This document shows, in pieces, positions 31,272 to 47,405 of a DNA stretch of 64,000 nucleotides. The number at the start of each line of letters is the position of its first letter. The stretch's first letter is position 1. Source of the stretch: Desulforhabdus amnigena (GTDB taxonomy: Bacteria; Desulfobacterota; Syntrophobacteria; Syntrophobacterales; Syntrophobacteraceae); contig NZ_BSDR01000001.1 of the NCBI RefSeq assembly GCF_027925305.1, positions 1,825,001 through 1,889,000 of the forward strand, read 5' to 3'. The position numbers were made by a program, and so were the translations under genes. The notes beneath the pieces are model-generated. The model searched no databases, was not told the origin of the DNA, and was given only the letters and a program-made list of their open reading frames with translations.

Positions 31272-31565
31272 AGTGGAAGTCAGCAAACCATACTTTGAAA
31301 AATCAAAAAGTTACGTTGGGCAAGCTGTATCAAGTTCAAGAGCCCTGTCAAGTTCCCGGCTTTTAAAGGAGCGCCGGGCTTTCTCTCCCAAGTCCCTCTT
31401 TGTTTGACTAAACATACGGGAAATGGTCGAACGTTCCCAATGGATACTCTCCGACTGAGATCAGGTAGAACGGGCAAGGGTGGACGCGATCATGAAAATC
31501 ATGTGATTTGTCTGAGAGCTCCTCCATCTCTTCCATGGCCGAAACCATCGGGGATGCATTGGATG
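31272..31565. other. Junction between comEC and the accessory island
   Basis: Non-coding stretch with no recognised feature. The left boundary of the island must lie here, since the first recombinase fragment begins at about 31566. Confidence 0.4.
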
Positions 31566-31712
31566 GGCGATTCCACACTCATTCCACACCATGAACCTGA
31601 AACCGAGGATGAAATAATGAACATATTGGATAGCTGTGGAATGACAGTTCGACATAACCAGCCGCTATTGTTGGAACTCCTCGATGAAGAACACACCACG
31701 AAATCGTTGTGA
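31566..31712 (+). pseudogene. Serine recombinase 3'-end fragment (copy 1)
   Basis: About 45 codons ending in EDEIMNILDSCGMTVRH, then a PLLLEL segment. They match the last 40 residues of the recombinase at 36344-37984 (MTIRHNHPLLLELL) and of copy 2. The homology continues past the old stop: CACCACGAAATCGTTGTG at 31694-31711 also follows the other copies. The rest of the gene is absent. The fragment lies just upstream of vapB in the same direction. Confidence 0.75.
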
Positions 31713-31891
31713 CGATTGAGATCATCGGGGAGGTTTCCATCACAGAATAACCTTTGGAGAGTGAATCGAGCAGGTCGTCAGTACCCCTGATTTCGTCCCG
31801 CCGTGTGTTACCTCTGTCATATTCGCTGAGCAAAAAATCGCTTGAATTTACACAAAGCATAGTGTAATTGAATGTGTAAAGGAGGTGTCGT
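31713..31891. other. Leader of the vapBC operon
   Basis: Non-coding. The AAAGGAGGTG ribosome binding site for vapB is at the right end. A promoter or operator for the toxin-antitoxin pair is expected here, but none was clearly seen. Confidence 0.4.
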
Positions 31892-32092
31892 ATGGCGACA
31901 AATCTGGCTATTGATGACAAACTGATTGAAGAAGCCCGCCGCATCGGCAAACATGCGACAAAGAAGGGCGTGGTCACTGAAGCGCTCCTTGAATACATCC
32001 AGCGCCGCAAGCAGATCGAGATCCTCGATTTATTCCATTCCGTCGACTATGATCCGGATTACGATTACAAGGAACAGCGCAAGAAACCATGA
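31892..32092 (+). CDS. vapB: VapB-type antitoxin (DUF2191 family)
   Basis: 66 residues. MATNLAIDDKLIEEARRIGK followed by TKKGVVTEALLEYIQRRKQ is the ribbon-helix-helix-like N-terminus seen in DUF2191 antitoxins. The acidic C-terminal tail with DYDPDYDYKEQ is suited to toxin binding. A very strong AAAGGAGGTG ribosome binding site precedes the ATG. Its stop overlaps the start of vapC by 4 bp (ATGA), typical of coupled antitoxin-toxin pairs. Confidence 0.9.
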   Translation: MATNLAIDDKLIEEARRIGKHATKKGVVTEALLEYIQRRKQIEILDLFHSVDYDPDYDYKEQRKKP

Positions 32093-32502
32093 AAGTCCTT
32101 GTCGATACCTGTGTCTGGTCTATGGCATTGCAGCGAAGCGATGGTTCCGATGGTCCGGAAGTGGCCGAGCTGATGGAGCTGGTCAAGGAACTGCGGGTAC
32201 AGTTGATTGGACCGGTGCGTCAGGAAATCCTTTCAGGAATCAAAAGCCTTGATCAGTTCACGAAGCTTCGCGATCATCTGCGCCCATTTCCCGATCTCGA
32301 ACTGACATCCAGAGATTTCGAGACAGCCGCTGAGTTCTATAATCTGTGTCGCTGTAAAGGGGTTCAGGGCTCAAATACCGACTTTCTCATCTGCGCTGTA
32401 GCAGTGCGCCACCAGATGCCCATTTTCACCACAGATGCGGATTTCAATTTCTTCCAGCAACACCTGCCGATCAAGCTCTATCGTTCGCGAATGGCGTCGT
32501 AG
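32089..32502 (+). CDS. vapC: VapC-type PIN-domain toxin ribonuclease
   Basis: 137 residues with the PIN-domain acidic residues: VDTCVWSMAL at the N-terminus, a central glutamate in VRQEILSGIK, and NTDFLICAVAV plus TTDADFNFF toward the C-terminus. Such toxins cut specific RNAs. It overlaps vapB by 4 bp and looks intact. The pair is flanked by inverted fragments of the same recombinase tail (31566-31711 and 32686-32905). Confidence 0.92.
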   Translation: MKVLVDTCVWSMALQRSDGSDGPEVAELMELVKELRVQLIGPVRQEILSGIKSLDQFTKLRDHLRPFPDLELTSRDFETAAEFYNLCRCKGVQGSNTDFLICAVAVRHQMPIFTTDADFNFFQQHLPIKLYRSRMAS

Positions 32503-32685
32503 CCTTACCCAGCGCAGCAACGGCGATAGATGAGATCAAAAGGCGGGGTATCAACCGAATTCCCCGTATGCTTTTCATGCCGGAAACCTCCCTAGTAGCC
32601 CCAGCCATGGAATATCTCCCAAGAAAGCCACCTGATCTCTCTGATCTGCAACCCTCGCCAAGCCCTCCTACGTGGTCTCGACCTT
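32503..32685. other. Non-coding stretch after vapC
   Basis: No feature recognised between the vapC stop and the inverted recombinase fragment. Confidence 0.4.
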
Positions 32686-32705
32686 CACAACGATTTTGTG
32701 GTGTA

Positions 32706-32905
32706 CTAATCTCCCAAGAGTTCCAACAATAATGGCTGGTTATGTCGAACCGTCAACGTAGTGTGCTCGATGATCTCCCCAACAGCGTCTTCAATCTCAG
32801 GTTCATGGTGTGGATTGACTATGAAATGGCCGACCACAATCGGACCGTCAAGCACACCTCGAAGGAGCCGTTGCTTACCGGAAAATGACAAGTTCATGAT
32901 TTTGT
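32706..32905 (-). pseudogene. Serine recombinase 3'-end fragment (copy 2, inverted)
   Basis: About 66 codons on the minus strand. They read KIMNLSFSGKQRLLRGVLDG, then PIVVGHFIVNPHHEPEIED and LTVRHNQPLLLELL. This aligns with residues near the C-terminus of the gene at 36344-37984 (KILNLPFADKYRLLRGILDG). The 18 bp palindrome follows at 32686-32703 with one change. It is in the opposite orientation to copies 1 and 3. Confidence 0.75.
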
Positions 32906-33964: not shown

Positions 33965-34126
33965 TCCAGCTACCGCTCAGTGATGTTTCGTTTTATTCCC
34001 CAAGTATAAAAAAAAGCCTATATCCCCCAAATGGGCGATGCCTTGGCTACTATGTTTTCATATAGTATCGGCACAAGAGCGGATTTCATGGAAATGCAAC
34101 CTGAACCCATTAGCAAGGAGGCTCGG

Positions 34127-34564
34127 ATGGCGCGAATAGGCATCATTACATGCTCTAACTGTTCGCAGGATACCAACTGTGCAGCGGTCGTGTGTCTTGG
34201 AGACATGAGAAAACGAAGCGGTTTCTTTGAGCGTTATCCTGCTGAAGAACCGCTCGACCTCATCGGTATCATCAACTGTGCAGGATGTCCCACTATTGCA
34301 GCTCCGAAAAAGATACTCAGGAAGGTGCGCGCTGTGGCCGAATTCAAACTGGACGCGCTTCATTTCTCATTTTGCATGACAGCACTTTGTCCCTTCCTTA
34401 CCAAATACGAAAAAACGATTAAGGAGGAGTACCCAAACCTCGAGATTGTTTTGGGAACACACAAGCCGATCGATAAGGGTGAGTTTCAAGAAAAGGTTAG
34501 GGAGCTTCTGTGCCCTTCGGTCTCCCCCACAAGAGCCATGACCGATGTAATCAAGGGAAGGTGA
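34127..34564 (+). CDS. CGGC domain protein
   Basis: About 145 residues. CSNCSQDTNCAAVVC near the N-terminus and NCAGCPT in the middle match the cysteine pattern of the CGGC domain, a putative metal-binding module common in anaerobes. SFCMTALCPFL adds two more cysteines. AAGGAGG precedes the ATG at 34127; the frame is open further upstream. It lies 160 bp after the Fe-S/LuxR regulator on the same strand and may be its target (inference). Confidence 0.72.
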   Translation: MARIGIITCSNCSQDTNCAAVVCLGDMRKRSGFFERYPAEEPLDLIGIINCAGCPTIAAPKKILRKVRAVAEFKLDALHFSFCMTALCPFLTKYEKTIKEEYPNLEIVLGTHKPIDKGEFQEKVRELLCPSVSPTRAMTDVIKGR

Positions 34565-34764
34565 CAGGTCTCCTTGACTTTACCGCCAACACCAATTTAT
34601 GGTGACACGAGGGCTGAACCGGAGCACTGGGAAGATGACTATATTGCAAGCAGAGTTACCTTAAACACTCAGGCATGGGGCATATGGATGCCCGTTTTAT
34701 CCTTTCAATTGCGGGACAGATGGAGGGTGGCATCGTAGTCTCTCCCTCCTGAGCGGAGTATCCA

Positions 34765-35160
34765 ATGGCGAAAGTACGCACCCGTGCCGCAGTGGTGCAT
34801 GAACCCGGCGGCCTATTTATTTTTGAAGATGTTGAAATCGACACTCCCCGTCCGGATGAAGTGGTAGTCCGTATCGTTGCCTGTGGGGTCTGTCACACGG
34901 ATATTGCTGCCCGAGACGGATTCTTTTCCATGCGGTTTCCGACAGTCTTTGGCCATGAAGGTGCAGGGATCGTTGAAACCGTGGGAACGGATGTGACCAG
35001 GGTCCGTGCCGGCGATAGGGTTGTGCTCTCCTTTAGCTCCTGCGGTAAGTGCGGGAACTGGCAGAGATGGCCATCCGGCTCACTGCGTGGCATTCGATGA
35101 GCTCAACTTTGGCAGTACAAGAATTGACGGGACTCCAACTATCTGGACTCCAAAAGGGGA
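34765..35160 (+). pseudogene. Zinc-dependent alcohol dehydrogenase, 5' fragment with frameshift
   Basis: The N-terminal quarter of a medium-chain alcohol dehydrogenase of the aryl-alcohol type. CGVCHTDIAARDG holds the catalytic zinc cysteine, FGHEGAGIVETVG the histidine, and SCGKCGN begins the structural zinc site. The frame then breaks between about 35059 and 35068, because GHPAHCVAFDELNFG continues in another frame. The gene is lost about 30 residues later, where recombinase sequence begins. Gene order or direction of transfer cannot be told. Confidence 0.8.
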
Positions 35161-35167
35161 TCCAACG

Positions 35168-35600
35168 TTCGTTGTGGAGACCTCAAGGCAGGCTATGGTG
35201 AGAGCACCCTGTACGTTCGCGACGGAAAGGGTTCGAAGTCCCCACGGTTCAGATTCCCGATTCTTTGAAACGCCATCTGAAGCAGTTCGTGACATGGAAG
35301 GCCGCACGGGGTGAGCCCTCATGCCCGGACGATCACGTTTTCCGCGGACAGCAAGGGCCATGGACAGCGCAGGCCATCCAGCAGTTGGTCAAAAAGCACC
35401 TGAAAGCGCTCGGGCTGTACGAAAATGAGAAGTCGGTGCATGCATTGCGTCACAGCTACGCCGTTGAATATTATCGGCAGGAGAAGGATCTCAGGGGATT
35501 GCAAAAACAGCTCGGTCATGCTTCGATCCAGACGACGCAAATCTATGCTGATGTGACCGCCGAGGACATCCAAAAGCAGATCCGGGGTCTATGGGGATAA
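35168..35600 (+). pseudogene. Tyrosine recombinase catalytic domain fragment, frameshifted
   Basis: The sequence begins inside the catalytic domain at RCGDLKAGYGESTLYVRDGK. It shifts frame at about 35240, where a base is missing relative to the expected SKSRTVQIP. It then continues to the end with HALRHSYAVEYYR (box II HxxR), LGHASIQTTQIYADV (His and nucleophile tyrosine). The N-terminal SAM-like domain and the first catalytic arginine region upstream are gone. It is fused directly to the alcohol dehydrogenase fragment. Confidence 0.82.
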
Positions 35601-35630
35601 GTGGAAATGGCTTGGTAGAAGAGAGGCCGT

Positions 35631-36347
35631 GTGCGAAACCGTCTACGTCAACGAGCACTTGTCTCCTTGTTGAAATCCCTCGACGGATCTCCGACCATTC
35701 TTGCTAATCAGATTTTCTTCCTATTCGACGTAAGACCCCACCTCGACACCATTACCAACAACATGACAGTCGAGAACGTCCTCGTGGCTGTCGGAACCAT
35801 TCTGCGATCCAAACAACGCCTCCATGAAGATGTCACTGCTTGGGCGCGCAATCTGTTCGACCAAGCTGGACTTCCTTTCGTGGGGAACTCAGCTTCCGGC
35901 GGTATGGAGCGCGATGAATGTGCGACCGATCCGCCATCCGGCCTTTCCGTTGTGCCTTCCCAATCAGCAACTCCGAAGACCGAAGTTCAGCCGCCTTCAC
36001 CAAAAAGGAAAAGCCGCCGAGTGTACCTGGATCTTGCCGTGAAACTGCTTGAGAAAGGCTCCTGCACACATCGGGCCTTGGTGGACGCAATCATGGAACA
36101 GCATCCCGGCTTGAACCGTGAAACCGTCTCGACCTTTGTTTCTGACGTTCAAAACCCCCGATACTCGCCAATAAAGGGCAGGAACGTGGTCAAGTTACCG
36201 CCGGATGGCAGACTGGTCTTCGAGGATAGGATCAAGCCGGTGCTTACTGTAATCGAAAATCCAACCTTCGCCGGGGTTGGGAAGAATGGAGCGGAACCGA
36301 TCACCGATATTGAAAAACAAGCAAACTTTTCCAAAGGTGATGTATGA
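35631..36347 (+). CDS. Uncharacterised protein upstream of the serine recombinase
   Basis: 238 residues, no family recognised. The middle is low-complexity (PPSPKRKSRR). The region near 130-185 (YLDLAVKLLEKGSCTHRALV, then NRETVSTFVSD) looks like a helical DNA-binding fold, such as a winged helix. The start is probably GTG at 35631 with GAGAGG upstream. Its stop overlaps the recombinase start by 4 bp, which indicates co-translation. A recombination accessory or regulatory role is plausible but only inferred. No zinc ribbon or catalytic motif is seen. Confidence 0.6.
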   Translation: MRNRLRQRALVSLLKSLDGSPTILANQIFFLFDVRPHLDTITNNMTVENVLVAVGTILRSKQRLHEDVTAWARNLFDQAGLPFVGNSASGGMERDECATDPPSGLSVVPSQSATPKTEVQPPSPKRKSRRVYLDLAVKLLEKGSCTHRALVDAIMEQHPGLNRETVSTFVSDVQNPRYSPIKGRNVVKLPPDGRLVFEDRIKPVLTVIENPTFAGVGKNGAEPITDIEKQANFSKGDV

Positions 36348-37984
36348 CAAAAGCAGCAGCGTACGTTCGCGTAAGCACCTCAAATCAAATCGATGGGGAA
36401 TCATTATCCACACAAAAATCTATCATCCAGGCTTATTGTGCATCAAAGGGCTGGAAGCTGGTAAACACCTTTAGAGACGCTGGCATATCAGGTTCCAACG
36501 TTGACAACCGGCCAGCTTTACAGGCATTGCTGGCAGCAGTCAAAACAGGAGAAATCGAAGCTGTGGTAGTTCGGGACCTTTCCAGGTTCGGGCGCTCTGC
36601 TCGGGACCTCTTGAACAACCTCCAAGCCCTAAAAGATTCCTCCGTCACGTTCATCAGCATCAAGGAAAACATCGACGGCTCCGACGCCTACAGCCAGTTC
36701 ATGCTCACCATCCTCGCTGCAATATCCCAGTTGGAGTTGGAAATAATTACCAGTCGCATCAAAGAGAACCGGTTGGCTCGCTGGCGAGATAGGCGGATCT
36801 TCTGCGGGAAGGCGCCTTATGGGTATATCTGGAACCCCAAAGAGAAGCGGATTGAGATCGAACCTGAACAGGGCGAGATCTATTCGATAGTGGTGAAAGA
36901 ATACCTGGATTTAGCAAGATCGTTGAACGACATCAGCCTCGAGCTCAACGCTGAAGGCATCCCGACCCGGAACGGCGGGTCCTCGAAATGGTTCAGTGGC
37001 ACACTCTCCAAAATCCTCAAATCTGCTGACTACTGTGGTGAAATAACGGTGAACAGATTTATCACCGACGTGAAAGGCAAGATAATCGGCCATCGCTCGG
37101 AAAGTGAACACATCATCTTCGAAGCTCCGCCACTTATAACGCGGGCCAGATGGGACCGCTTGCAGGAACGTCTGGATAGCGCCAACTCCCGAAGCGGCAG
37201 ACCATCGAAAATGGAGTAGGAGTTCTTGCTTCACGATTTATGTCGCTGTGGCATCTGCGGGGCGAAGATGCGGTCTGATTATGGAACTAGGCGCGCAGAC
37301 GGCAGTCGGTCCCGCCATTACGCCTGCTACTGGCATAAAGTTGGTCCAAAGACACGCGAAATCAAGGGTCACCAGAAATGCCCGCTGCCTCTCATTCCAG
37401 CGGAGCTTCTTGAATGGCAGGTCTTCTATGTCCAGCTCATGAAGCACCTCGGCCTTGAGCCTGAGCATTATGAACCTCTGCTCGATACGCAACACAAGTG
37501 GGACGGCAAAATCGAAGGCCTGGAAAAGAGCCGGAGCAACGTTCAAGCCAGCCTGAGAAGGAAATAAATCGCCCTGCGGAACCTGGACAGCCTGCTTGAG
37601 CATGACGGTTTTGACCAAGCCGCATACTCCCAAAAGCGAAACGGTTTTCTGATGGAGATAAAATCGCTCGACCAGAAGCCGAAGGATACGCAGAAAGACC
37701 TCGATGAACTCCAGCAGCGAAAAGCCGAGGAAGCCGAGTTCGCCAAGCTGATGTCCGGGGCCGATCCCTTCAAGGCCCTGAGCTACAAAATCCTCAACTT
37801 GCCTTTTGCTGACAAGTACCGGCTCCTACGGGGCATTCTCGATGGTCCGATTGTGGTCGGCCATTCCGCATTCAATCCACACGTTCAGCTCGATCCTGAA
37901 GATGAAATGATGAAGATACTGGAGGGGATCGAGATGACGATCAGACATAACCATCCGTTATTGTTAGAACTCCTAGATAATTAG
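36344..37984 (+). pseudogene. Large serine recombinase interrupted by two in-frame stop codons
   Basis: One reading frame of 547 codons broken only by TAG at 37217-37219 and TAA at 37565-37567, with no frameshift. The first part (291 residues) has the resolvase catalytic domain: AAYVRVSTSNQ with the nucleophile serine, VVVRDLSRFGRSARDLL, and a recombinase domain (GKAPYGYIWNP, then RNGGSSKWF). After the first stop comes the zinc ribbon CRCGICGAKM. After the second stop comes a coiled-coil tail ending MTIRHNHPLLLELLDN. The catalytic part alone could still be made, but without the zinc ribbon it is unlikely to work as a large serine integrase. Confidence 0.88.
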
Positions 37985-38327
37985 TACACCACGAAATCGT
38001 TGTGATGACTGAGGCCATCGGGGATGCCTCAGGCTGGCTGTGGATCAGGAAAGTCATTTGATTTCTCCATAGCGTATTCCATGACTTACGATCTTGCGGG
38101 AGAGGGCAGGGTGGGATCAAACCATGAAAATCGTTGAGCTTTGCAGAGAAATGCTCTATATTGGAAACTTACGAAGTCGTGTCATGGAGGTTTGGATCAG
38201 GAGGAACGTGTGATACCGCTCGCTGTCAGGGGGGTAGCACTTCTTGGTTGGGACCACTGGGATCGGGGGACTCCACACTACGGACTTCCGGTCGCCCTGA
38301 GGGCTCTTCCATGATTGTGACCATGCG
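37985..38327. other. Stretch between the recombinase and the inverted-repeat cassette
   Basis: Starts with the 18 bp palindrome CACCACGAAATCGTTGTG (37987-38004), shared with the other recombinase-tail copies. A 267 bp open frame starting near 38134 has no family features and I do not call it. Confidence 0.5.
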
Positions 38328-38563
38328 GGATGGGTCAGGGGGGCAAATTACAGATTCAGGTTGCCGCCCTGAGGGAAACTCCATTAGAGAGGCCAGGTAA
38401 GGATGTTGCCGACGCTACTACATCCACATGCCGACAACCCTTATCAGGTGCTGTCCCGTCGGGTTCCGTGATATCATAATGCAAGACCAGACTCCATTTC
38501 TGCACTGATCCTTCATTGTAGAATTGTAGATCTGAAGACTGGGGATAGCTCGGTCGTTTCCTG
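38328..38563. repeat. Left inverted repeat (IR-L) of the three-gene cassette
   Basis: About 236 bp whose reverse complement matches 41812-42045 at roughly 87% by eye (13 differences in one 99 bp stretch). The similarity starts and stops abruptly. It includes a 33-codon open frame on the minus strand (38418-38516), conserved in length in both copies. Confidence 0.88.
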
Positions 38564-38605
38564 CCTACACGAGAACTACGAGTCTTCCCCAGTGGAAGGG
38601 AATCC

Positions 38606-39580
38606 ATGTCGAGAAACACAAATCTTGAAGAGATCCTGTTTCCGGTAAAACTGTGCGATATCTTTTACGATGGCGGTCCTTCTGACCCGACAGGCGATCC
38701 ATCGTGTGAGACGACCGAGGAGTGGAGAATTTCCATTCCAGGTTACCGGGCTGTAGTCAACGCACTGACTGGCGAACCCCTGGCGGTGGTGAGCAAGAAT
38801 TACCGGCTGGTCACCAACCAGGAAGCCTTCCTGCTTGGTGAACAGTGCTTCAAGGCCGTCTTTGACGCCGTTGACACTTCCGAGATGGAGATTTTCAATA
38901 TCATCACTCCAAAGCAGAAGTCCTTTTGCCATGTGGACATCGTTCACAAGCATTACGCGCTCAACATCTGGGCTCAGGAGATATGGCTTCCCTTCATACG
39001 GCTCACCAACAGCTATAACCGGACCAGAGCACTCCATTTCACTTTGGGATTCTGCCGCAAGCTCTGCGATAACGGGGTCATCTTCGAAAGCGAGACCATA
39101 GAATTCAGGTTCTTCCATACCAAAGACATGATCCCCAAAGGGGAGTTTGAGATTGGATTCCACCACCTCAAAGAGCTCGAGACGGCATTCATCGATCAGA
39201 TGACTCTCCTGAAAGCCTTCCACGTTCCAGAAAATCTGGTTCTCCCCCTCGCCTGTCAGGCCTTGGGCTTGAAATTCGATCTTCGCGCTACAGACCACCA
39301 GAAACGGGAGAAGGAGCACCACAAGTTCGACATACTCAAAGAGGGCATACAAGCACTCACAGAGAGGTATTTCTCCCAATTGGGTGAAAATGGCTACGCA
39401 CTACTGAATATCGTTTCGGACTATGCGAGCAGGCCCTTCGGCGCCCCTCTCCAAAGCATGAGGATCAACGTTTTTCAAAAACGCACGGGCAGCTGGATCG
39501 GGAGTTTCACTAGGGCCATTCGGGCTTCGGATTTCAACATCTCGACTTATCTCGGCCCGTACCTCGACTATTCACTTTGA
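38606..39580 (+). CDS. DUF932 domain protein (phage/plasmid-type)
   Basis: 324 residues. GYRAVVNALTGEPLAVVSKN followed by YRLVTNQEAF, and later SYNRTRALHFTLGFCRKLCD with NGVIF, are the signatures of the DUF932 family. This family is found on plasmids and phages and its function is unknown. AAGGGAA precedes the ATG. It is the first gene of the cassette inside the inverted repeats. No nuclease or helicase motif is visible. Reported contexts of DUF932 are mobile or defence-related (general knowledge); nothing in the sequence shows its activity. Confidence 0.75.
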   Translation: MSRNTNLEEILFPVKLCDIFYDGGPSDPTGDPSCETTEEWRISIPGYRAVVNALTGEPLAVVSKNYRLVTNQEAFLLGEQCFKAVFDAVDTSEMEIFNIITPKQKSFCHVDIVHKHYALNIWAQEIWLPFIRLTNSYNRTRALHFTLGFCRKLCDNGVIFESETIEFRFFHTKDMIPKGEFEIGFHHLKELETAFIDQMTLLKAFHVPENLVLPLACQALGLKFDLRATDHQKREKEHHKFDILKEGIQALTERYFSQLGENGYALLNIVSDYASRPFGAPLQSMRINVFQKRTGSWIGSFTRAIRASDFNISTYLGPYLDYSL

Positions 39581-39652
39581 ACCCTTACCTTCAGTCTTAT
39601 CTGATGTCACCGCGAAGCATGCGCTGCAGTCCAAATTGAAAGAGAACTATCC

Positions 39653-40900
39653 ATGTGGCTGTTCACGACCTCCGGTTTCTTTAGTGTTGTTCAAAAACCC
39701 GGTAAGGCATTCCTGACTGTAAGAGCTCGTGCGTCGGGAGACCTCGACCGCCTTCGGGAAGCCTACATGCCCACGCTGTCCCCCACCCAACATGGGGGAG
39801 GCACCGACTATCCGTACAGAGCCACTATCAGCCACAAAGACTTCGCCAAAGGAATGAAGCGAGTCGTTGAGGATCTGACCTACGCCAACTTCAAGAGTGA
39901 GGTCTCAAAGACCTTGGGCCAAAAGCGTAGCCAGGTCTATTCCAAGGTCTGGAGCGTGCTCCACGATGTCGAAGAGGCCGTCACACCAAAGACGCCGCCA
40001 GTCAAAGGGAAGAAGACTCTGGTCAAAAAGCTCTCCTGCGGAGGAGTGGTTTTCAACAAGCAAGGGCAGGTACTTCTGCGGGAGCCAACCAACCATTTCG
40101 ATGGCTATCATTGGACGTTTCCCAAAGGGCATTGCAAAGACGGCGAACGACACGAAATCGCGGCATTGCGTGAGGTTATTGAAGAAACGGGTGTAGCAGG
40201 AAGGATCATAGACAAGCTTCCGTACGTCTATGCAGGAGGCACCACTCAGAACATTTACTTCCTCATGCTCGTCGAAAGAGAAACGGATGAATTCGACCGC
40301 AAGGAGACGCAGGCGATTCGCTGGGCCTCCCGGGACGAAGCGGAACGACTCATCGGAATGAGCACCAATTCCGTCGGACGCAAGCGCGATTTCAAGGTCC
40401 TGCAGAATGCCTACGAGTTGTACGAACATTTTTCCGCAGCACATGCCAGTTCAATACATATCGCCTCAAGAAAGGACTGGAAGATCCGCGCCATGCCGGG
40501 GATGCGAACGAGCATCCCCATCGCGCTGGAGTTCTCCCCCGAGGAGAAGGCACTGATCGTCTGCGGCCATATTCCCCAAGAGATGGAAGACAAATGGTTT
40601 ATTTTCTATGAAAGAAACCGGCTCTATTTCCATCGAAGTTGGACGGGCTACTGCATCTACATCCTTGAATTCACCGAAATCGGTGCCCGATTCAGCGGAA
40701 CCCGACTGCTCGCCAACCGACTCGACGAGCAGTACTCGAACAAGAACGACGAGTACGATGCGAAGATGGCAGCTTTTCTGATCGACGTTGAATTGCTGGG
40801 CCGGGACGCAGAACTCCCTGTCCTGGACGAAGCGGCACCGGAGATCGAAAAGAATCTTCAACAGTGGAGCGCACTCGGCATGACCATTTTCAAAGTCTGA
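39653..40900 (+). CDS. Three-part protein with a central Nudix hydrolase domain
   Basis: 415 residues. Residues 1-110 (MWLFTTSGFFSVVQK..., with DYPYRATISHKDFAKGM) form a domain of unknown function. Residues about 125-265 form a Nudix hydrolase with a perfect box, GHCKDGERHEIAALREVIEE then TGV. Residues 270-415 form another unknown domain, including MEDKWFIFYERNRLYFHRSW. Nudix enzymes cleave nucleoside diphosphates linked to another group (X), so a nucleotide or ADP-ribose-like substrate is likely but not specified. The gene follows the DUF932 gene by 72 bp. Confidence 0.78.
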   Translation: MWLFTTSGFFSVVQKPGKAFLTVRARASGDLDRLREAYMPTLSPTQHGGGTDYPYRATISHKDFAKGMKRVVEDLTYANFKSEVSKTLGQKRSQVYSKVWSVLHDVEEAVTPKTPPVKGKKTLVKKLSCGGVVFNKQGQVLLREPTNHFDGYHWTFPKGHCKDGERHEIAALREVIEETGVAGRIIDKLPYVYAGGTTQNIYFLMLVERETDEFDRKETQAIRWASRDEAERLIGMSTNSVGRKRDFKVLQNAYELYEHFSAAHASSIHIASRKDWKIRAMPGMRTSIPIALEFSPEEKALIVCGHIPQEMEDKWFIFYERNRLYFHRSWTGYCIYILEFTEIGARFSGTRLLANRLDEQYSNKNDEYDAKMAAFLIDVELLGRDAELPVLDEAAPEIEKNLQQWSALGMTIFKV

Positions 40901-40988
40901 GCAAGCGTGTTCGATCTGACAGACGCCTGTAACCGGCAATACCGGTCTCAGCAATGCCACTCCCATCGAGAGAGCAGGAGATTTCGAC

Positions 40989-41771
40989 TTGACTAACAGT
41001 AATATTGAATCCGACGCACTCACCTCCTCCGATCAGAAGCAAGTGGACGAACGCCTGAACATCGTCAACTCCACTATCAGGCCATTTGCCAGAAAGATCC
41101 ACAAGATCCTGGTAGATCTCCAACCCGGTTGCATCCCAAAAGTACGTTCGCCGTCGAACATGCCCTATATTCGCTATACACCCTATCCCGATGTCTTCCA
41201 TTTGGTGACGAATCAGAGCGCGTGCAGCCTTCAAGTCATGAAGACAAGTCTCGGCATCGGAGAGATTCTGATAGGGGCTGGATGCATTCTATCGGACAAG
41301 GTGAACTACTTCGGCATTAAGATAGACAGTCAAGAATCTGTCGATAGTTTTTTGAGAGCCATCAAGCTATGCTTTCCAGATATTCAAGATTCGTTAGGTA
41401 TTATTAGTAACGTGGCAGGAGAAATATCAAAATTCGAGATATTCACAGAAGGTGCAGTACATTCTATCCTAGTAAACGCCTACGAGCGAGACAAGAAAGC
41501 TCGCAAGAAATGCCTGGATCATTATGGTGCCATATGTTGCGTTTGCAAATTTGACTTTGGTAAATATTATGGGTCCGCATTTCAAGATTTTATACATGTT
41601 CACCACATAAAACCCATATCCAGTATTGGCAAAGAATACATAATAGATCCAATTGCGGATTTGCGTCCGCTTTGTCCGAATTGCCACGCTGCAGTCCATG
41701 CCATTAATCCGCCGTACTCAATCGAGCAGATAAAGCAATTGGTCAAAGAATCGAGCGAAACGAGTAAATAA
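40989..41771 (+). CDS. HNH endonuclease (McrA-like)
   Basis: 260 residues, starting at TTG 40989 with an AGGAGA box. The C-terminal part carries the HNH/zinc pattern: CCVCKFDFG, then HVHHIKPIS, then LRPLCPNCHAAVH, as in McrA-like and type IV restriction nucleases. The first 150 residues have no recognised family and may read DNA or a modification. It is 88 bp behind the Nudix gene and is the last gene of the cassette. A nuclease in this position makes an anti-phage role reasonable (inference). Confidence 0.8.
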   Translation: MTNSNIESDALTSSDQKQVDERLNIVNSTIRPFARKIHKILVDLQPGCIPKVRSPSNMPYIRYTPYPDVFHLVTNQSACSLQVMKTSLGIGEILIGAGCILSDKVNYFGIKIDSQESVDSFLRAIKLCFPDIQDSLGIISNVAGEISKFEIFTEGAVHSILVNAYERDKKARKKCLDHYGAICCVCKFDFGKYYGSAFQDFIHVHHIKPISSIGKEYIIDPIADLRPLCPNCHAAVHAINPPYSIEQIKQLVKESSETSK

Positions 41772-41811
41772 TCACTTATGCAGGAGAATATCATGACTTC
41801 TTCTCTCCTGA

Positions 41812-42045
41812 CAGGAAACGACCGAGCTATCCCCCGTCTTCGGATCTAAAATTCTGCAATGAAGGATCAATGTAGAAAAGGGATCAGGTCTTGCATTATG
41901 ATATTACGGAACCCGGCGGGACCGCACCCGATCAGGATTGTAGGCATGTGGATGTAGTGCCGTCGACAACATCCTACGTGGCCTCTCTAATGGAATTTCC
42001 TTCAGGCGGCAACCTGAATCTGTAATTTGCCCCCCTGACCCGTCC
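41812..42045. repeat. Right inverted repeat (IR-R) of the three-gene cassette
   Basis: Reverse-complement partner of 38328-38563. It begins CAGGAAACGACCGAGCTATC and ends CCCCCCTGACCCGTCC. The 33-codon open frame is conserved on the plus strand at 41859-41957. Confidence 0.88.
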
Positions 42046-42539
42046 TTTGAAAAAACGAAGTCCTGAAAAACCCACGTTTTGCAAATCCTAGCTGGATTGG
42101 GTTGTCCTGTTTCGGAAGCCTCGTATATGTGGGTTGGGGTGAATCAGTGACAGGGTGACGCCTGCGGTACGATAAGTTAATGGCGCCTTCTTGTAGTATG
42201 GCAAAAGCATGAAGTTATCTGATAAGCTGGTCAGCAATTAAGTAAAATGGACATGCATCACGGGGCGATCCTGTTATATAATCATATAAAATTAATTTGG
42301 ATTTCCTTCCCCGCCAGTCCTGGCAATATGCCGTGAACGTCATATCCCGTATTATCGAACCGATTTTCAAGGAACCATACAAGCCGTTTCAGATGGCAAC
42401 GCATGGAAAATTTCATATACGGGCGAACATCACTGAACCAAGAAAAAATTCCAGGACCAAAGAACTTGTACGATCAGGCTGGAATGGGCAAACCTGATGC
42501 CAATGGCGGCTGAAACTGCGAAATCTCGCTGGCCTTTTG
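42046..42539. other. Stretch between the cassette and tonB
   Basis: About 490 bp; no gene or repeat recognised. The right boundary of the accessory island probably lies here. Confidence 0.4.
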
Positions 42540-43505
42540 TCAGTTGTTGCCCTTTTCCTTCAGCTGAAAAAGGATGGGGAGACGGGCCTTGCAGAGGACC
42601 GGTTTTCCGTTCTGCTTTGCCGGACTGAAGGTCGATTTCTTAACGGCCTGCAAAGCTTCCTCGTCGAATCCAGACCCAGCTCCCTGGACCACTTTTACAT
42701 CGACCAGGTGTCCGAGTTCGTCAATGGTGACCAGGAGCAAAACGGTCCCCTCCTTCCCGAGTTCTCTGGCAAACCGGGGGTATCTGGGCAGGACCTTCCT
42801 GACGAACCGGGGACCATCTCCTGAGCCGAACGTCGCGTTGTACGGCCCCCCTCCTCCACCGGCACCGACACCGGAGCCTGCACCGGCACCCTCTCCGGAA
42901 TGGCCTTTTCCGGGGCCATCGACATTTCCCGATCCAGCCCCTTCGCCATGCCCGGAAAGAGCGCCGGCGGCGGCACCGGGGCTCTCACTCTCGGCTTTCG
43001 CCACGGGGGACGAAGAGGGCTCCGCGTTCGCAATGGTCTGCTGCTTCTGGGGAAGCTTAGGCTTTGGCCTGGTTTTTGGCTTCTCCACGGGCTTTTTGAC
43101 TTTCTTGGGAATCGGAACGAGGGGCACGGTCTCCTTGACCGTTTCAGCCGGATGCACCGCTTCCGTTTTTTCCGATTCCGGCTTCGCCGGTGCTTCCCGT
43201 TCAGGTTCCACCGTGGATTCCAGTGCCGGCGGAGACGGAACCTCCTCCGATCCTCCCGAAGGCTTCGGTTCCCCGTTTCCCTTATTCGAAGCGCCTTCTT
43301 CCCCCTCCCCTCCACCGCCTCCAATATCTTGCAGTGTGAGCAGGCTCACCGTGCACAGCGGGAGTTCAACCTTGCGGGGCGGCATCAGCCATGAACCAGC
43401 CAGTACCAGCAGGAAAACCGCGACGTGAACGAAAACGGACACGACCATGCCTTTCAGAACGCCTTCATCGAACAGTCCGTTATTCCTGTAATCCCGAGCT
43501 TCCAT
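42540..43505 (-). CDS. tonB: TonB energy transducer
   Basis: 321 residues: an N-terminal membrane anchor (about 18-40), a long Pro/Lys/Gly-rich linker spanning the periplasm, and a C-terminal TonB domain (FVRKVLPRYPRFARELGKEG, then SGFDEEALQAVKKSTFSPA). It couples proton motive force from ExbBD to outer membrane receptors. GAGGATCAAGG precedes the ATG. It is the third gene after exbB and exbD, all on the minus strand and apparently under the cobalamin riboswitch, which suggests a dedicated vitamin B12 transport system. Confidence 0.93.
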   Translation of the reverse strand: MEARDYRNNGLFDEGVLKGMVVSVFVHVAVFLLVLAGSWLMPPRKVELPLCTVSLLTLQDIGGGGGEGEEGASNKGNGEPKPSGGSEEVPSPPALESTVEPEREAPAKPESEKTEAVHPAETVKETVPLVPIPKKVKKPVEKPKTRPKPKLPQKQQTIANAEPSSSPVAKAESESPGAAAGALSGHGEGAGSGNVDGPGKGHSGEGAGAGSGVGAGGGGGPYNATFGSGDGPRFVRKVLPRYPRFARELGKEGTVLLLVTIDELGHLVDVKVVQGAGSGFDEEALQAVKKSTFSPAKQNGKPVLCKARLPILFQLKEKGNN

Positions 43506-43626
43506 ATTGCCTTGATCCTCAATACCCTTTCGTATTCACTTTCCATCGGAGAAAGTCGGCGAGAGGAAATTAATGTGAAAAAGGTTTCACTCTTTCATGA
43601 ATCACCCGGTTGGATGGCACCGGAGC

Positions 43627-44076
43627 TCAGCTCTCCGGTAAGGGATGTTTTGCGCTTCCCGCGAGCGGTTCCGTTATCATGCCGATCTCTTCGATTCCCG
43701 CATCCCGAATAACTCCCATGACCTGGGCCACGAGCCCGTATTCGACCTTACGATCGGCTCGCAGGATGACGCCTCGTTTCTCCTGACACTCTTTTTGTAT
43801 GGCCGAGAGCCTGGCCCCCAGCATCCCGAGCTCAACCTCGTTATCTTCGACGAGGACCTTCCCGTCGGCAGTCACACTCACCACGAGCCTTTCCGTCTCT
43901 GTGGGAATGGGCCTGGCGGAGACTGCGGGAAGCCTCACGTCGATGCCCTGGATCATCATCGGTGCCGCAACCATGAAAATGATCAGCAGAACGAGCATGA
44001 CATCCACGAAAGGGGTCACGTTGATCTCCGATACCATCCGCCTACGTGAGCGGATGCCACTCATCTGCATACCCAT
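43627..44076 (-). CDS. exbD: ExbD/TolR-family proton channel subunit
   Basis: About 149 residues with one membrane segment. VSEINVTPFVDVMLVLLIIF contains the conserved aspartate of the family, followed by a periplasmic domain. I choose the ATG at 44076, eight bases after GAGGAG; a GTG at 44085 is less likely. It lies between exbB and tonB. Family members of TolR type are hard to tell from ExbD by sequence; the tonB neighbour favours ExbD. Confidence 0.92.
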   Translation of the reverse strand: MGMQMSGIRSRRRMVSEINVTPFVDVMLVLLIIFMVAAPMMIQGIDVRLPAVSARPIPTETERLVVSVTADGKVLVEDNEVELGMLGARLSAIQKECQEKRGVILRADRKVEYGLVAQVMGVIRDAGIEEIGMITEPLAGSAKHPLPES

Positions 44077-44088
44077 TGGAAACACTCC

Positions 44089-44943
44089 TCATCCTGTCTG
44101 CAGGGAACTCTCGTCCCTGCGGCCGCACAAGCTTTGACTTTCCCTCGTAATCCCCAGTGTTTCCGATCCCTCATCGTCCTGCCTGGTCTCACACATCAAA
44201 TCGGTCTTGAGCCTGTTGAGAAAATCGGAAGTGAACTGGAGCATATCGTCTTCTATCACCTGGATCTTGTTGGAGAAGTGGTTATAGGCCACCACTGCGG
44301 GAATGGCGGCCGCAAGCCCCATGGCCGTAGCCACGAGGGCTTCCGAGATGCCCGGGGCCACCACCGCCAGGTTGGCAGAACCTTTCATGCCAATGTCCTG
44401 AAAGCTGGTCATGATACCCCACACGGTGCCGAAAAGTCCGATGAAAGGGGCTGTGCTGCCCGTTGTGGCCAGAAACGACAGCATACGCTGCAACCGCTTC
44501 CTTTTGGAGATGACACCGCCCTGAATGGCGCGATCCACGTTCTCCAGAAGCATATCCGTATGTCCTTCCGTGTTCTTCAGCCTCTTGCTCTCCAAAAGGC
44601 CGCTTACGCGGTTCAGTTCCGCGTAGCCGATCCGGAAGATATGGGCCAGATGGCCTTCCCGAAGCCGATCACATTCTTTATGGAGCGGCTCCAGACTTTT
44701 GCACCGAATGAAAAGGTCCGCAAAAGCCTCCGATTCCCGGTTCACCTTTCGAAACTGGAAAGTCTTGGCCACGATGATGCCCCAACAGACCAAGGAGAGG
44801 CTTAGCAGACCTGCCATGATGGCCTGGACCACCGGTCCCGCATGGATCACCATGCTAAGAATGCCTGTCCCACCCGGGGTGGGAAGAACCTCCGCCACCT
44901 CTGCTGTCGCTTGAGTCGTTGCCGCCAGTATGGTCAAAATCAA
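44089..44943 (-). CDS. exbB: ExbB/TolQ-family proton channel protein
   Basis: 284 residues with three membrane segments. LSFLATTGSTAPFIGLFGTV (family signature) and IPAVVAYNHF lie in the MotA/TolQ/ExbB domain. It forms the proton channel with ExbD and energises TonB. The start is TTG at 44943, with GGAGGTG at proper spacing. It is the first gene of exbB-exbD-tonB and sits about 200 bp downstream of the riboswitch terminator. Confidence 0.93.
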   Translation of the reverse strand: MILTILAATTQATAEVAEVLPTPGGTGILSMVIHAGPVVQAIMAGLLSLSLVCWGIIVAKTFQFRKVNRESEAFADLFIRCKSLEPLHKECDRLREGHLAHIFRIGYAELNRVSGLLESKRLKNTEGHTDMLLENVDRAIQGGVISKRKRLQRMLSFLATTGSTAPFIGLFGTVWGIMTSFQDIGMKGSANLAVVAPGISEALVATAMGLAAAIPAVVAYNHFSNKIQVIEDDMLQFTSDFLNRLKTDLMCETRQDDEGSETLGITRESQSLCGRRDESSLQTG

Positions 44944-45139
44944 TGTTACACCTCCTTCTTATCCTGCCTTGGATACTTCCTGTTAAAAATGCTTCAAGAA
45001 AGTTGAGATGAATTTTTACGCTATTGAGGACAAAATCCTTATGGCATCGTGATCGCCTCTTCAAAAGTGAGTAAAAACAGTCAGAGGATTCAACCCTATC
45101 GGGCCGCGTAGTTATGATCTTGAGTATTAAGCGATCAGG

Positions 45140-45177
45140 CAAAAAAAAATCCCTAGAGCTAAACACTCTAAGGATTG
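45140..45177 (-). terminator. Intrinsic terminator of the cobalamin riboswitch leader
   Basis: On the minus strand ATCCTTAGAG pairs with CTCTAGGGAT (one G-U pair) around a short loop, followed by nine Ts. It lies between the riboswitch and exbB and is likely the expression platform. Confidence 0.8.
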
Positions 45178-45240
45178 CACCCTGCTTCACTTGATCCTTG
45201 ATCAGGTCATCGGAATTTCCACGTACCGATTTCCCAAACA

Positions 45241-45400
45241 GCATCAGGCAGGTCTTCTGACTTACGGATCACTCTACTTTCCGGACCTTCCCATCCCGCT
45301 CCAGGCGCGACAGTGGCATCACCGGATTTCGTCCCCGTTCACAGCGGCGGGACCGTTCCCGACTTTCACGGGATTCCCTTTTAAGCTCAGCACTACTCGA
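45241..45400 (-). promoter_or_regulatory. Cobalamin (B12) riboswitch
   Basis: Read on the minus strand, the 5' part has AAAAGGGAATCCCGTGAAAG and CGGTCCCGCCGCTGTGAA. The B12 box GCCACTGT lies at about 45310-45317, and the 3' end reads AGTCAGAAGACCTGCCTG, all hallmarks of cobalamin riboswitches. It lies upstream of exbB-exbD-tonB, with a terminator in between, so cobalamin should reduce their transcription. Confidence 0.85.
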
Positions 45401-45462
45401 CCAAGAATTCCCGCTTCACACAAAACAACAATATGATCGCATCATTACAATCTTGGACTAAG

Positions 45463-45570
45463 AGCCTATCCGAAAACCTACCTCGGCAGCGGACACCCCC
45501 CTTTCATTCCCTCCTCAAGGGGGGACCAATGGAGGTGTCGCAAAGTCCACAGGTAGTTTCCGGATAGGTT
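45463..45570. mobile_element. Small MITE-like element with terminal inverted repeats
   Basis: About 108 bp. The left end AGCCTATCCGAAAACCTACC pairs with the right end read in reverse as AACCTATCCGGAAACTACC. CTAAG flanks both sides directly (45458-45462 and 45571-45575), which may be a target duplication. The interior has a further C-rich/G-rich fold. There is no coding capacity. Confidence 0.65.
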
Positions 45571-45745
45571 CTAAGTAGCAGCACCTGATCCTCAAATAAA
45601 CTTATTGAGTGAAAGATACAGGATACTCATTATAACGTCAATGATCATCTTTGAAATAAAAGCGGTACTGACAAGGGAAATTTGAACAGGAACCCTGCTG
45701 GTTGACTCAACTGCCACTACCTCCTACTTCAATGTCAACCGTCCC
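45571..45745. other. Non-coding stretch
   Basis: No feature recognised between the MITE-like element and the small membrane-protein gene. Confidence 0.4.
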
Positions 45746-45898
45746 CTATTCTGAGAGATCAAAAGCTTGAACTGCGAGAGATCCGGCCTCAGAACTCTCT
45801 GCATCTCCCCCTGCGTCCTCTTGCTTGAGGAGCACCCCGATGAGAACGCCGAAACAAATTCCGAAGAAAAGGCCAATTTCAAAAGCGAGCCATGCCAT
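45746..45898 (-). CDS. Small single-span membrane protein (50 residues)
   Basis: A 50-residue protein beginning MAWLAFEIGLFFGIC, with one hydrophobic helix (about 4-25) and an acidic tail rich in serine, aspartate and glutamate. A strong AAAGGAGGGAG ribosome binding site precedes the ATG at 45898, which makes a real gene likely despite the length. It is below normal gene-finder limits. No family recognised; small membrane proteins often bind transporters or regulators, but nothing here shows a partner. Confidence 0.6.
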   Translation of the reverse strand: MAWLAFEIGLFFGICFGVLIGVLLKQEDAGGDAESSEAGSLAVQAFDLSE

Positions 45899-46335
45899 GA
45901 CACTCCCTCCTTTGCCCCAAGAGGTTAAGCACGCACTTTCCCCACTCTTATATATTATATCAATATTTTTAATAGCTTAACTAAATCAAAACATCTATTT
46001 TAGAAGGATCGGCTACGGAATTTGAAGAATGTTTTTCAACTTGAATAAAAACCATTTTATCAGTCGCGAGAACTACCAGGAGGCTACAAAAGCAATAGGA
46101 AGTTAAATTTAAAATAATCACTCATATGCCTGGCTGCAAATACAGAGATCCTTTTTGTTTAAAATACCCAATTCCTGAAAAAACGAAAAGGAGAAAAACA
46201 CGTTCTGCCAGGTTCGGACAGATTTATCAGGCATCATTTGTGCATAAAGAAAGCTCCCTTGAATGACACTCCCACTGAGATCGAGGCAACGGTCATGTCA
46301 CGCAGCCGGTCGGTGTGTCCATTGAACGGCAGGAG
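45899..46335. other. Non-coding stretch before the 3D-domain gene
   Basis: AT-rich; no gene recognised. It contains the upstream region of the small membrane protein. Confidence 0.4.
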
Positions 46336-46361
46336 CCATGTCAACAAATTTGTTAACATGG
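46336..46361. promoter_or_regulatory. 26 bp palindrome upstream of the 3D-domain gene
   Basis: CCATGTCAACAAA/TTTGTTAACATGG, arms of 13 bp with one mismatch and no loop, about 85 bp upstream of the ATG at 46447. It resembles a dimeric operator. Confidence 0.45.
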
Positions 46362-46446
46362 ATTGGGTCTAATTGACAAAATGGAAAGGCTGAGGCTTCA
46401 CAGCGCTTCTCTTGGATCACGAGGCCTACCAGGAAAGGAAGAAATA

Positions 46447-46863
46447 ATGTCAAGAAATATCGGAGCATTATCTATCTACTGTTTGGCTACCATGTTTTTT
46501 CATTTCCCACTGAGCGCCCATGCTCACCCCAATCAGGAAACTTCAGACTTTCGCAAAGTCACAGTCAGCGCTTACACCAACACCTCTTCGTGTACAGATA
46601 CGACCCCCGGTCGTACAGCTTCTTCTCTTCGCATCAAACCAGAACATTACCGAAAGTTGGTCGCATTGAGTCCCGACCTGGCGAAGAATTACGACTTTGG
46701 CGATAAATTCTATCTGGTGGTCAAGGGAAAGAGCCACCTGGTAGAATTTCAAGATATCATGCCCAAGAAACACAAGAATAAGATCGACTTTCTTCTTCCC
46801 TCCAAACGGGAATGCATGAAGTTTGGAGTGACCCAAGGGGTACTCATTCCTGTGGACGACTGA
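46447..46863 (+). CDS. Secreted 3D-domain (double-psi barrel-like) protein
   Basis: 138 residues with a signal peptide (MSRNIGALSIYCLATMFFHF, then a cleavage near AHAH). The mature part opens with KVTVSAYTNTSSC and ends in FLLPSKRECMKFGVTQGVLI. It resembles the 3D/RlpA-like double-psi barrel seen in MltA-type and Rpf-type wall proteins, and probably acts on or binds peptidoglycan. The usual catalytic D-x-D set was not verified. AGGAAGG precedes the ATG at 46447. A 20 bp perfect hairpin follows at 46887. Confidence 0.65.
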   Translation: MSRNIGALSIYCLATMFFHFPLSAHAHPNQETSDFRKVTVSAYTNTSSCTDTTPGRTASSLRIKPEHYRKLVALSPDLAKNYDFGDKFYLVVKGKSHLVEFQDIMPKKHKNKIDFLLPSKRECMKFGVTQGVLIPVDD

Positions 46864-46886
46864 TGAGAAACATTTCTTTGAAAATA

Positions 46887-46936
46887 AAACCACTGAAGAT
46901 GCCGTCTTCAAAACTTGACGGCATCTTCAGTGGTTT
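46887..46936. terminator. Perfect 20 bp hairpin after the 3D-domain gene
   Basis: AAACCACTGAAGATGCCGTC (46887-46906) and its exact reverse complement at 46917-46936 around a 10 nt loop. With A-rich and T-rich sides it could serve as a terminator in either direction, though the T-run is short. Confidence 0.65.
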
Positions 46937-47405
46937 GAATCAGGCATGACCGTTGCCCATTCAGAGGGTTCCTGATGAGACCCCTCAATGACATTTCCCT
47001 CCACCATTCCATGGCATCATAGCAATGATGTCATGAACAGCGCCGTTTTCCACATCGCGAACGAATAAATTCGAAGGCTGTCCGCAGATTCTAAAGAACT
47101 GGATTCCCGGCACCTGATCCGCCTATCCCTTCACAATGAGCCTATGCCATCCAAGATGCAAAAATCTTCTCATATGTCCATAATTTCCAAATCATAACAT
47201 TATAACGAAATATCGTTAATATTTGATATCATACCTTCCATATCAGGCCCTCGATCAAAAGGAAAAGGAGCATTTCTCATGGAATCCTCCATGGCTGAAG
47301 GCATCTCGAGGCTCTCCTTCCAGCCTTCAGAGGCTTCAAAAATCGCCTTTCAGAGTTGGCATATGAATTGCTCTTCATATCGATCAACTCAACAAGGAGT
47401 TCGAT
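46937..47405. other. Non-coding stretch
   Basis: No gene recognised. One open frame starting at 47279 runs into the small gene below but has no supporting ribosome binding site. Confidence 0.4.

Follow-up and report, generated by a model that had tools for sequence, protein, structure and literature searches.

Nucleotide hydrolysis and an HNH nuclease are already associated in GmrSD, in which a part proposed to hydrolyse nucleotides (DUF262) is combined with an HNH part (DUF1524), and the BrxU protein of pEFER is placed between brxC and pglX (PMC8565348). Between pglX and pglZ, loci for bacteriophage exclusion (BREX) are known to have additional genes (PMC9009780), and a 2026 BREX survey names HNH, GmrSD, and other added effectors (PMC12839542), according to the portions of these papers considered here. 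We describe a 3.7-kb unit of Desulforhabdus amnigena in which two inverted repeats (236 and 234 bp) enclose three plus-strand genes, encoding a DUF932 protein, a three-domain Nudix protein, and an McrA-like HNH nuclease, in this order. The unit occupies positions 38328-42045 of the 64,000-nucleotide stretch that was analysed (contig NZ_BSDR01000001.1, positions 1,825,001 to 1,889,000), hereafter the window. We read it as a small, horizontally acquired, stand-alone restriction-type anti-phage cassette lying outside a larger restriction operon, and we assign this reading a probability of roughly 55%. The cassette includes a member of an unexplained protein family that elsewhere is often found inside phage-defence operons beside a DNA-cutting enzyme. 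Its features are as follows (window positions).

38328..38563, plus strand: left arm of the inverted repeat, 236 bp; 89% identity to the right arm read as its reverse complement; two genome copies only
38606..39580, plus strand: DUF932 protein, 324 residues; Pfam PF06067; 53% identity to the protein of G045, a genome from another genus of the same family
39653..40900, plus strand: three-domain protein, 415 residues, with N-terminal MWxFT, Nudix, and C-terminal 'EDKWFIF...HRSWTG' parts; from Pfam and plasmid relatives
39653..39982, plus strand: MWxFT domain (residues 1-110); from aligned relatives and a predicted model
40031..40342, plus strand: Nudix domain (residues 127-230); PF00293, E 9e-17
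40445..40804, plus strand: C-terminal domain of the Nudix protein (residues 265-384); relatives on Aeromonas, Paracoccus, and Rhodobacter plasmids
40989..41771, plus strand: HNH nuclease, 260 residues, TTG start; PF01844, E 1e-7
41028..41366, plus strand: residues 14-126 of the HNH protein, its N-terminal domain; 33% identity to the tail of the Nudix protein in G045
41812..42045, minus strand: right inverted repeat, 234 bp; from alignment with the left arm and genome search

The three open reading frames (ORFs) are separated by gaps of 72 and 88 nt. The first ATG lies 42 bp from the left arm and the right arm begins 40 bp after the last stop, as a preliminary description made from the sequence alone had stated; the three co-directional genes that it named were likewise confirmed by the ORF list and Pfam. 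Scores were 29.4 bits for DUF932 (cut-off 23), 61.8 bits for the Nudix domain (cut-off 21.1, residues 127-230 only), and 32.2 bits for the HNH domain (cut-off 21.4, residues 183-237). The Nudix box and the HNH catalytic residues were complete, as judged by eye on the translations. Neither the MWxFT nor the C-terminal part of the Nudix protein matched Pfam or PHROGs, and the N-terminal 154 residues of the HNH protein had no Pfam match. No Rfam family scored above threshold within 37900-42400, and a promoter and terminator scan, which gave 7 and 8 sites where 3.6 and 3.7 were expected, respectively, was not used as evidence. In PADLOC, no named defence system had models covering whole cassette proteins, in agreement with the preliminary description, which had recognised no known defence system in the set: the DUF932 protein had no match, the Nudix protein matched only the candidate family PDC-S07 (103 residues), and the HNH protein was matched across 78 residues only, in its C-terminal nuclease part. 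The complete trio of genes is known from this locus alone among the genomes searched.

The restriction-type reading draws on the neighbours of DUF932 relatives. At least 25 relatives were obtained from one genome-contig scan with two peptide patterns and 2 from a viral scan, the list being incomplete. All 25 aligned members matched the DUF932 model at E 0.01, and 1 of the 25 matched a PADLOC model, weakly. Neighbours were counted at 25 loci (L044-L068), leaving aside L043, which is the G045 contig, and L069, which has the same ORFs as L049. Core BREX genes, defined as BrxC, PglX, PglZ, or BrxL relatives at E 1e-10, were present at 13 of these loci, GmrSD at 11, and either at 15; with a plasmid of P. 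veronii (L038) added, the counts become 14, 12, and 16 of 26, respectively. The PglX match ended 7-25 nt before DUF932 at 10 of the 25 loci and about 3 kb before it in L045. On the P. veronii plasmid, PglX directly precedes DUF932, and in two Bacteroidota loci (L060 and L061) BrxL is followed by DUF932.

The GmrSD start overlapped the DUF932 stop (ATGA) at all 12 GmrSD loci, which are partly related and thus not 12 independent events (GmrSD identity to the plasmid copy, 51% to 97%). These comprised 11 scan loci and the P. veronii plasmid (L038, L045, L046, L048, L050, L052, L054, L055, L056, L059, L065, and L068), and 10 of the 12 had core BREX genes. The GmrSD start coincides with the final base of the last sense codon of DUF932, as checked in the sequence of L046. 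This overlap implies that DUF932 and GmrSD are likely translationally coupled, and the sharing of four bases with the gene of a type IV nuclease in 12/12 cases gives DUF932, a domain of unknown function, a directly testable role. Other restriction genes were found at further loci: L044 has the order AAA protein (probably McrB-like), DUF932, short ORFs, and McrBC-domain protein, HsdM follows DUF932 in L049, and HsdR precedes it in L066. Overall, a confirmed restriction gene was present at 19 of the 26 loci. The preliminary description had suggested a conflict or anti-phage role from the pairing of a nuclease with a nucleotide-hydrolysing enzyme; such a role fits these neighbours (core BREX at 13/25, GmrSD at 11/25, and McrBC or type I genes at three others) and is, so far, supported by association.

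A DUF932 profile at E 1e-15 found 2 of 55 genomes of the class, namely the window genome (G000) and G045, and both copies adjoin MWxFT-Nudix; in a 395-genome sample of the phylum, it found G000 only, plus a C-terminal piece in G348. A tblastn search with the DUF932 protein against phage records gave no match at E 1e-3. No solved structure stood out for the predicted folds of the DUF932 protein and the MWxFT domain (best Z 4.2 and 5.5, respectively), which does not imply fold novelty, and a sequence-profile search of solved structures yielded no outstanding match for DUF932.

The G045 locus (contig JAJYTC010000089.1) encodes DUF932, MWxFT, Nudix, and the N-terminal domain of the HNH protein in the window order. 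Identities to the window were 53% for DUF932, 52-53% for MWxFT, and 46% over the Nudix domain, and residues 14-126 of the window HNH protein shared 33% identity with the tail of the Nudix protein in G045 (E 3e-15). Because G045 keeps the four modules in order without repeats, the comparison of sequences points to modules that form a set of their own, one not defined by the repeats. Specifically, no inverted repeat of at least 25 nt was found in the 4.5 kb searched around the G045 unit, nor was one found in the surroundings of DUF932 in L038, and L039 and L034 had only imperfect inverted pairs of 27 and 25 nt, respectively. Co-occurrence elsewhere, which the preliminary description had set as a check, thus holds for the four modules and their order but not for the same three genes, and the idea that the repeats are part of the gene set was not sustained.

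The surroundings of the G045 unit were also recorded. Before it come an ORF truncated by the contig end, with a TaqI-type specificity domain, and then a DEAD helicase that also has an MZB (MrfA Zn-binding) domain and one resembling phospholipase D; after it comes a 2,017-residue protein, by eye a DUF4011-type helicase. Together with these ORFs, the unit is a possible composite defence operon (L035:54-15060).

G026, the second genome examined from this genus, had neither DUF932 nor the three-domain protein, an absence that fits horizontal gain of the cassette; synteny matches with it were scattered over several contigs, and no empty site was read. The whole window genome gave no PglZ match (PF08665, E 0.001) in a search whose control was positive in 2 of 14 known genomes, and we therefore consider BREX to be absent from it. 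No PglX lies beside the cassette, the longest ORF in 34000-47000 having 415 residues versus more than 1,100 for PglX relatives. The cassette, with three genes and no BREX, is a small setting in which the role of DUF932 could be tested.

We gave the name MWxFT to residues 1-110 of the Nudix protein (predicted local distance difference test score of the model, 95.4). The domain, about 110 residues long, was encoded by 159 of 241 candidate stretches in one scan of viral contigs, where it is common; 80 of these 159 viral loci were kept (L116-L195), and L113-L115 also belong to the MWxFT set. None of 37 members matched Pfam or PHROGs models, so that MWxFT is a family common to phages and hosts that these models leave unmatched in the members compared. 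A Nudix-domain relative lay within about 1.4 kb of MWxFT at 5 of the 80 viral loci, and in two annotated phages preselected for matches. One protein with the same three parts, 39.5% identical over query residues 1-384, is encoded by plasmid pE31A of Aeromonas media, and single parts occur separately on other plasmids. Besides G000, the phylum sample gave just two matches, both to the Nudix region, at E 1e-10, with up to 4 candidates scored per genome. A viral contig (L033:2622-10133) has a 2,503-residue multi-domain ORF whose Nudix domain is 39% identical to that of the window.

The nuclease part of the HNH protein is related to EcoKMcrA (6ghc) at E 9.5e-4 over residues 161-239 only. Among plasmids, 219 records matched the HNH protein and none covered 80% of it; the 30 listed start at residue 100 or later, and the first 145 residues had no convincing plasmid match (one, E 0.9). 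No relative of the HNH protein was confirmed in viral contigs and, beyond G045, none of its N-terminal domain was confirmed in plasmids, viral contigs, or the 394 other genomes of the phylum sample, which does not include G045.

The stand-alone cassette was proposed because DUF932 relatives often adjoin restriction enzymes and, most tightly, GmrSD, which combines a part proposed to hydrolyse nucleotides with an HNH part, and because in the window DUF932 is accompanied by a nucleotide hydrolase and an HNH nuclease as two separate proteins. The HNH protein would then be the effector, cutting foreign and probably modified DNA, with its N-terminal domain possibly providing specificity or contact with a partner. 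DUF932 may serve the nuclease as a partner or adaptor, either loading it or holding it back, as it might do beside GmrSD. The Nudix protein would hydrolyse an NDP-X compound, ADP-ribose-like or a dinucleotide, either as a gate that clears a signal or to remove a phage-made product. A broader proposal is that this DUF932 subfamily is an unrecognised portable partner of modification-dependent nucleases, occurring in BREX-GmrSD, McrBC, and type I settings and in the Nudix/HNH cassette, the last of which would be a new type IV-like system of two enzymes with a nucleotide hydrolase as its gate; we advance this proposal tentatively, as an idea with the odds against it.

Several observations weigh against the stand-alone restriction-type reading. 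The support is associative, and defence islands gather unrelated genes. The core BREX count of 13/25 compares favourably for this reading with 0 of the 80 MWxFT loci from viruses and 1 of 26 short Nudix loci from genomes of the class, but these two sets are unmatched to the DUF932 loci in length and source, and the contrast serves as a guide and not as a test. At 7 of the 26 DUF932 loci (L051, L053, L058, L062, L063, L064, and L067), no restriction gene was confirmed by searches of part of the ORFs; the ORF after DUF932 in L064 was read by eye as a cytosine methyltransferase, and a ResIII helicase lies near L051 DUF932. The fusions in G045 differ from those of the window, the HNH domain is absent there, and MWxFT occurs without DUF932 both in G043 and in the second copy of the window genome. 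The window genes, spaced by 72 and 88 nt, lack the tight coupling seen between DUF932 and GmrSD. Finally, the third-position content of guanine and cytosine was 0.48 in the HNH gene (0.40 in its C-terminal part) versus 0.65 in the other two genes, and this lower value suggests that the nuclease joined the cassette later and may be a separate arrival.

Among the alternatives, an ADP-ribose clean-up or counter-effector function fared best, and we consider it unlikely. Here, the MWxFT-Nudix protein would undo or sense phage ADP-ribosylation, the HNH nuclease would be a loosely attached second effector, and the cassette would be a reduced relative of the systems centred on an ADP-ribosylglycohydrolase (ARG) (PMC9503650). 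ADP-ribose-related genes do recur near these domains. At L034:6305-8254, the second MWxFT gene of the window genome is followed by a 202-residue protein and then, as the second gene after MWxFT, by one resembling ADP-ribosylarginine hydrolase or ADP-ribosylglycohydrolase (below NCBIfam cut-offs), and the three-domain protein of the Aeromonas plasmid follows an annotated ADP-ribosylglycohydrolase with one gene intervening. A Sphaerotilus plasmid has MWxFT among Sir2, phosphatase, MoxR, VWA, and WYL genes, and in two of three phages an annotated ADP-ribosyltransferase adjoins the genes for MWxFT and a Nudix domain, but the third has no annotated ADP-ribose gene by MWxFT. The solved relatives of the Nudix domain include, at the weaker end, ADP-sugar pyrophosphatases (E about 3e-4), whereas the best are Ndx1 and AP4A hydrolase. 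The cassette itself carries no ARG, Macro, Sir2, or ADP-ribosyltransferase gene, an ARG relative was found in 0 of 83 viral loci, and it is restriction genes to which the DUF932 relatives are linked.

The repeats bear on a second alternative. An inverted-repeat search found two arm pairs, 38400-38563/41812-41975 (88% complementary) and 38328-38377/41996-42045 (90%). Local alignment of the whole arms (236 versus 234 nt) gave 89.0% identity, close to the 87% of the preliminary description, which had also noted sharp ends to repeats of about 235 bp; similarity indeed drops abruptly at both arm ends. A search of the 4,536,740-base genome returned only these two copies (E 6e-120 and 1e-82), excluding a chance origin of the similarity. 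In 58 other relatives, no full copy was found, only short pieces with matches up to E 1. The 394 other genomes of the phylum sample gave one 39-nt piece at E 0.001 (G242) and no full copy in a search that scored at most 2 candidates per genome and could have missed a distant copy. The repeat was not found among plasmid records at E 0.01, nor was an exact 20-base piece of an arm matched in viral contigs. Arm folding barely exceeded that of shuffled sequences (z -0.60, 61/200 as good; z -1.78, 11/200).

An insertion sequence or common repeat was accordingly rejected, given the two genome copies, the lack of plasmid copies, and the merely short pieces in relatives and the phylum sample. This bears out the view that the unit is not an ordinary insertion sequence, since the ORFs and Pfam matches of the cassette include no transposase between the arms and the repeat has no further genome copy; for the latter reason, the arms are also not two copies of a common element. 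The arms contain 'ggtcagg' motifs that resemble RAYT flanks, and a REP/RAYT origin of the arms is left unproven. The genome has 9 Y1 transposase matches; the arm motif is present at the two arms only, and a motif beside L109 differs from it.

A serine recombinase gene with two in-frame stops (36344-37984) lies 343 bp upstream of the left repeat, and an integrase-like fragment is found at 35265-35600. A diverged dispersed repeat is present at 37815-38100, near the recombinase end, and at 31470-32880; its relatives lie around an ORF at 32089 that we read as PIN-like, and further relatives of the repeat occur in G026.

That the cassette moves by means of its repeats is plausible. A cargo-only transposon, in which the 3.7-kb unit would be moved in trans via its 236-bp ends with the three genes as passenger defence cargo, appears less probable still than the ADP-ribose explanation. 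The abrupt termination of the arms near the coding unit, the lack of the repeat elsewhere in the genome, and the recombinase and integrase-like sequences just upstream agree with it, but there is no transposase inside and no target-site duplication (no direct repeat of at least 4 nt at the boundary; the best 5-nt match is off the boundary). Moreover, no second copy exists in the genome and no full copy was found in the phylum sample, the recombinase carries in-frame stops, and the arms have diverged by 11%. The least credible explanation is that of ordinary pieces in an old island with no joint function, the repeats being left over from a family of inverted intergenic repeats, an explanation which weak partial repeat matches between larger ORFs of other genomes (L074, 78 nt, 67%; L094, 39 nt, 87%), the disabled recombinase, and the deviating HNH gene composition would favour, but which conflicts with the module order common to the window and G045, the open frames with catalytic motifs complete by eye, and the linkage of DUF932 to restriction genes in other genomes.

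The proposed stand-alone restriction-type cassette can be placed against described systems. Restriction add-ons are known as a kind, whereas the DUF932 coupling and the stand-alone unit appear unreported in the literature searched. Ten papers there name DUF932, once or twice each, and one names TIGR03299. No paper naming both DUF932 and BREX was found there, and the word DUF932 is absent from PMC8565348 and from the main text of the BREX survey (PMC12839542). It is also absent from the text of PMC9503650 considered, in whose section 3.8 no MWxFT-like domain was recognised, and the portion considered of a type IV survey names neither Nudix nor HNH (PMC11090510).

DUF932/TIGR03299 proteins of phages and plasmids belong to the same Pfam family, and the predicted fold of the window protein matches both in the viral library. 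The window protein, however, scores 15.5 bits against the TIGR03299 cut-off of 110.7, and it had no tblastn match in phage records at E 1e-3; its subfamily differs in being often linked to restriction operons. The ARG-centred anti-ADP-ribosylation systems, as presented in the part of PMC9503650 considered, share with our modules the placement of MWxFT or Nudix beside ARG, Sir2, and WYL genes elsewhere, whereas the cassette has neither ARG nor a transcription factor. EcoKMcrA, a type IV restriction enzyme, has a related HNH domain (E 9.5e-4 over 79 residues), but the N-terminal domain of the window HNH protein showed no relation to it in sequence searches, and the cassette has two extra genes. 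BREX operons with GmrSD or BrxU are similar in that DUF932 relatives occur in them, 7-25 nt after pglX at 10/25 loci and overlapping GmrSD where present. In contrast, the window genome has no PglZ match, the GmrSD_N (DUF262) and GmrSD_C (DUF1524) domains were not found by Pfam in the three cassette proteins, and a Nudix protein and an McrA-like HNH nuclease take the place of GmrSD. GmrSD unites nucleotide-hydrolase-like and HNH domains in one chain, whereas the window encodes them as separate Nudix and HNH proteins next to DUF932.

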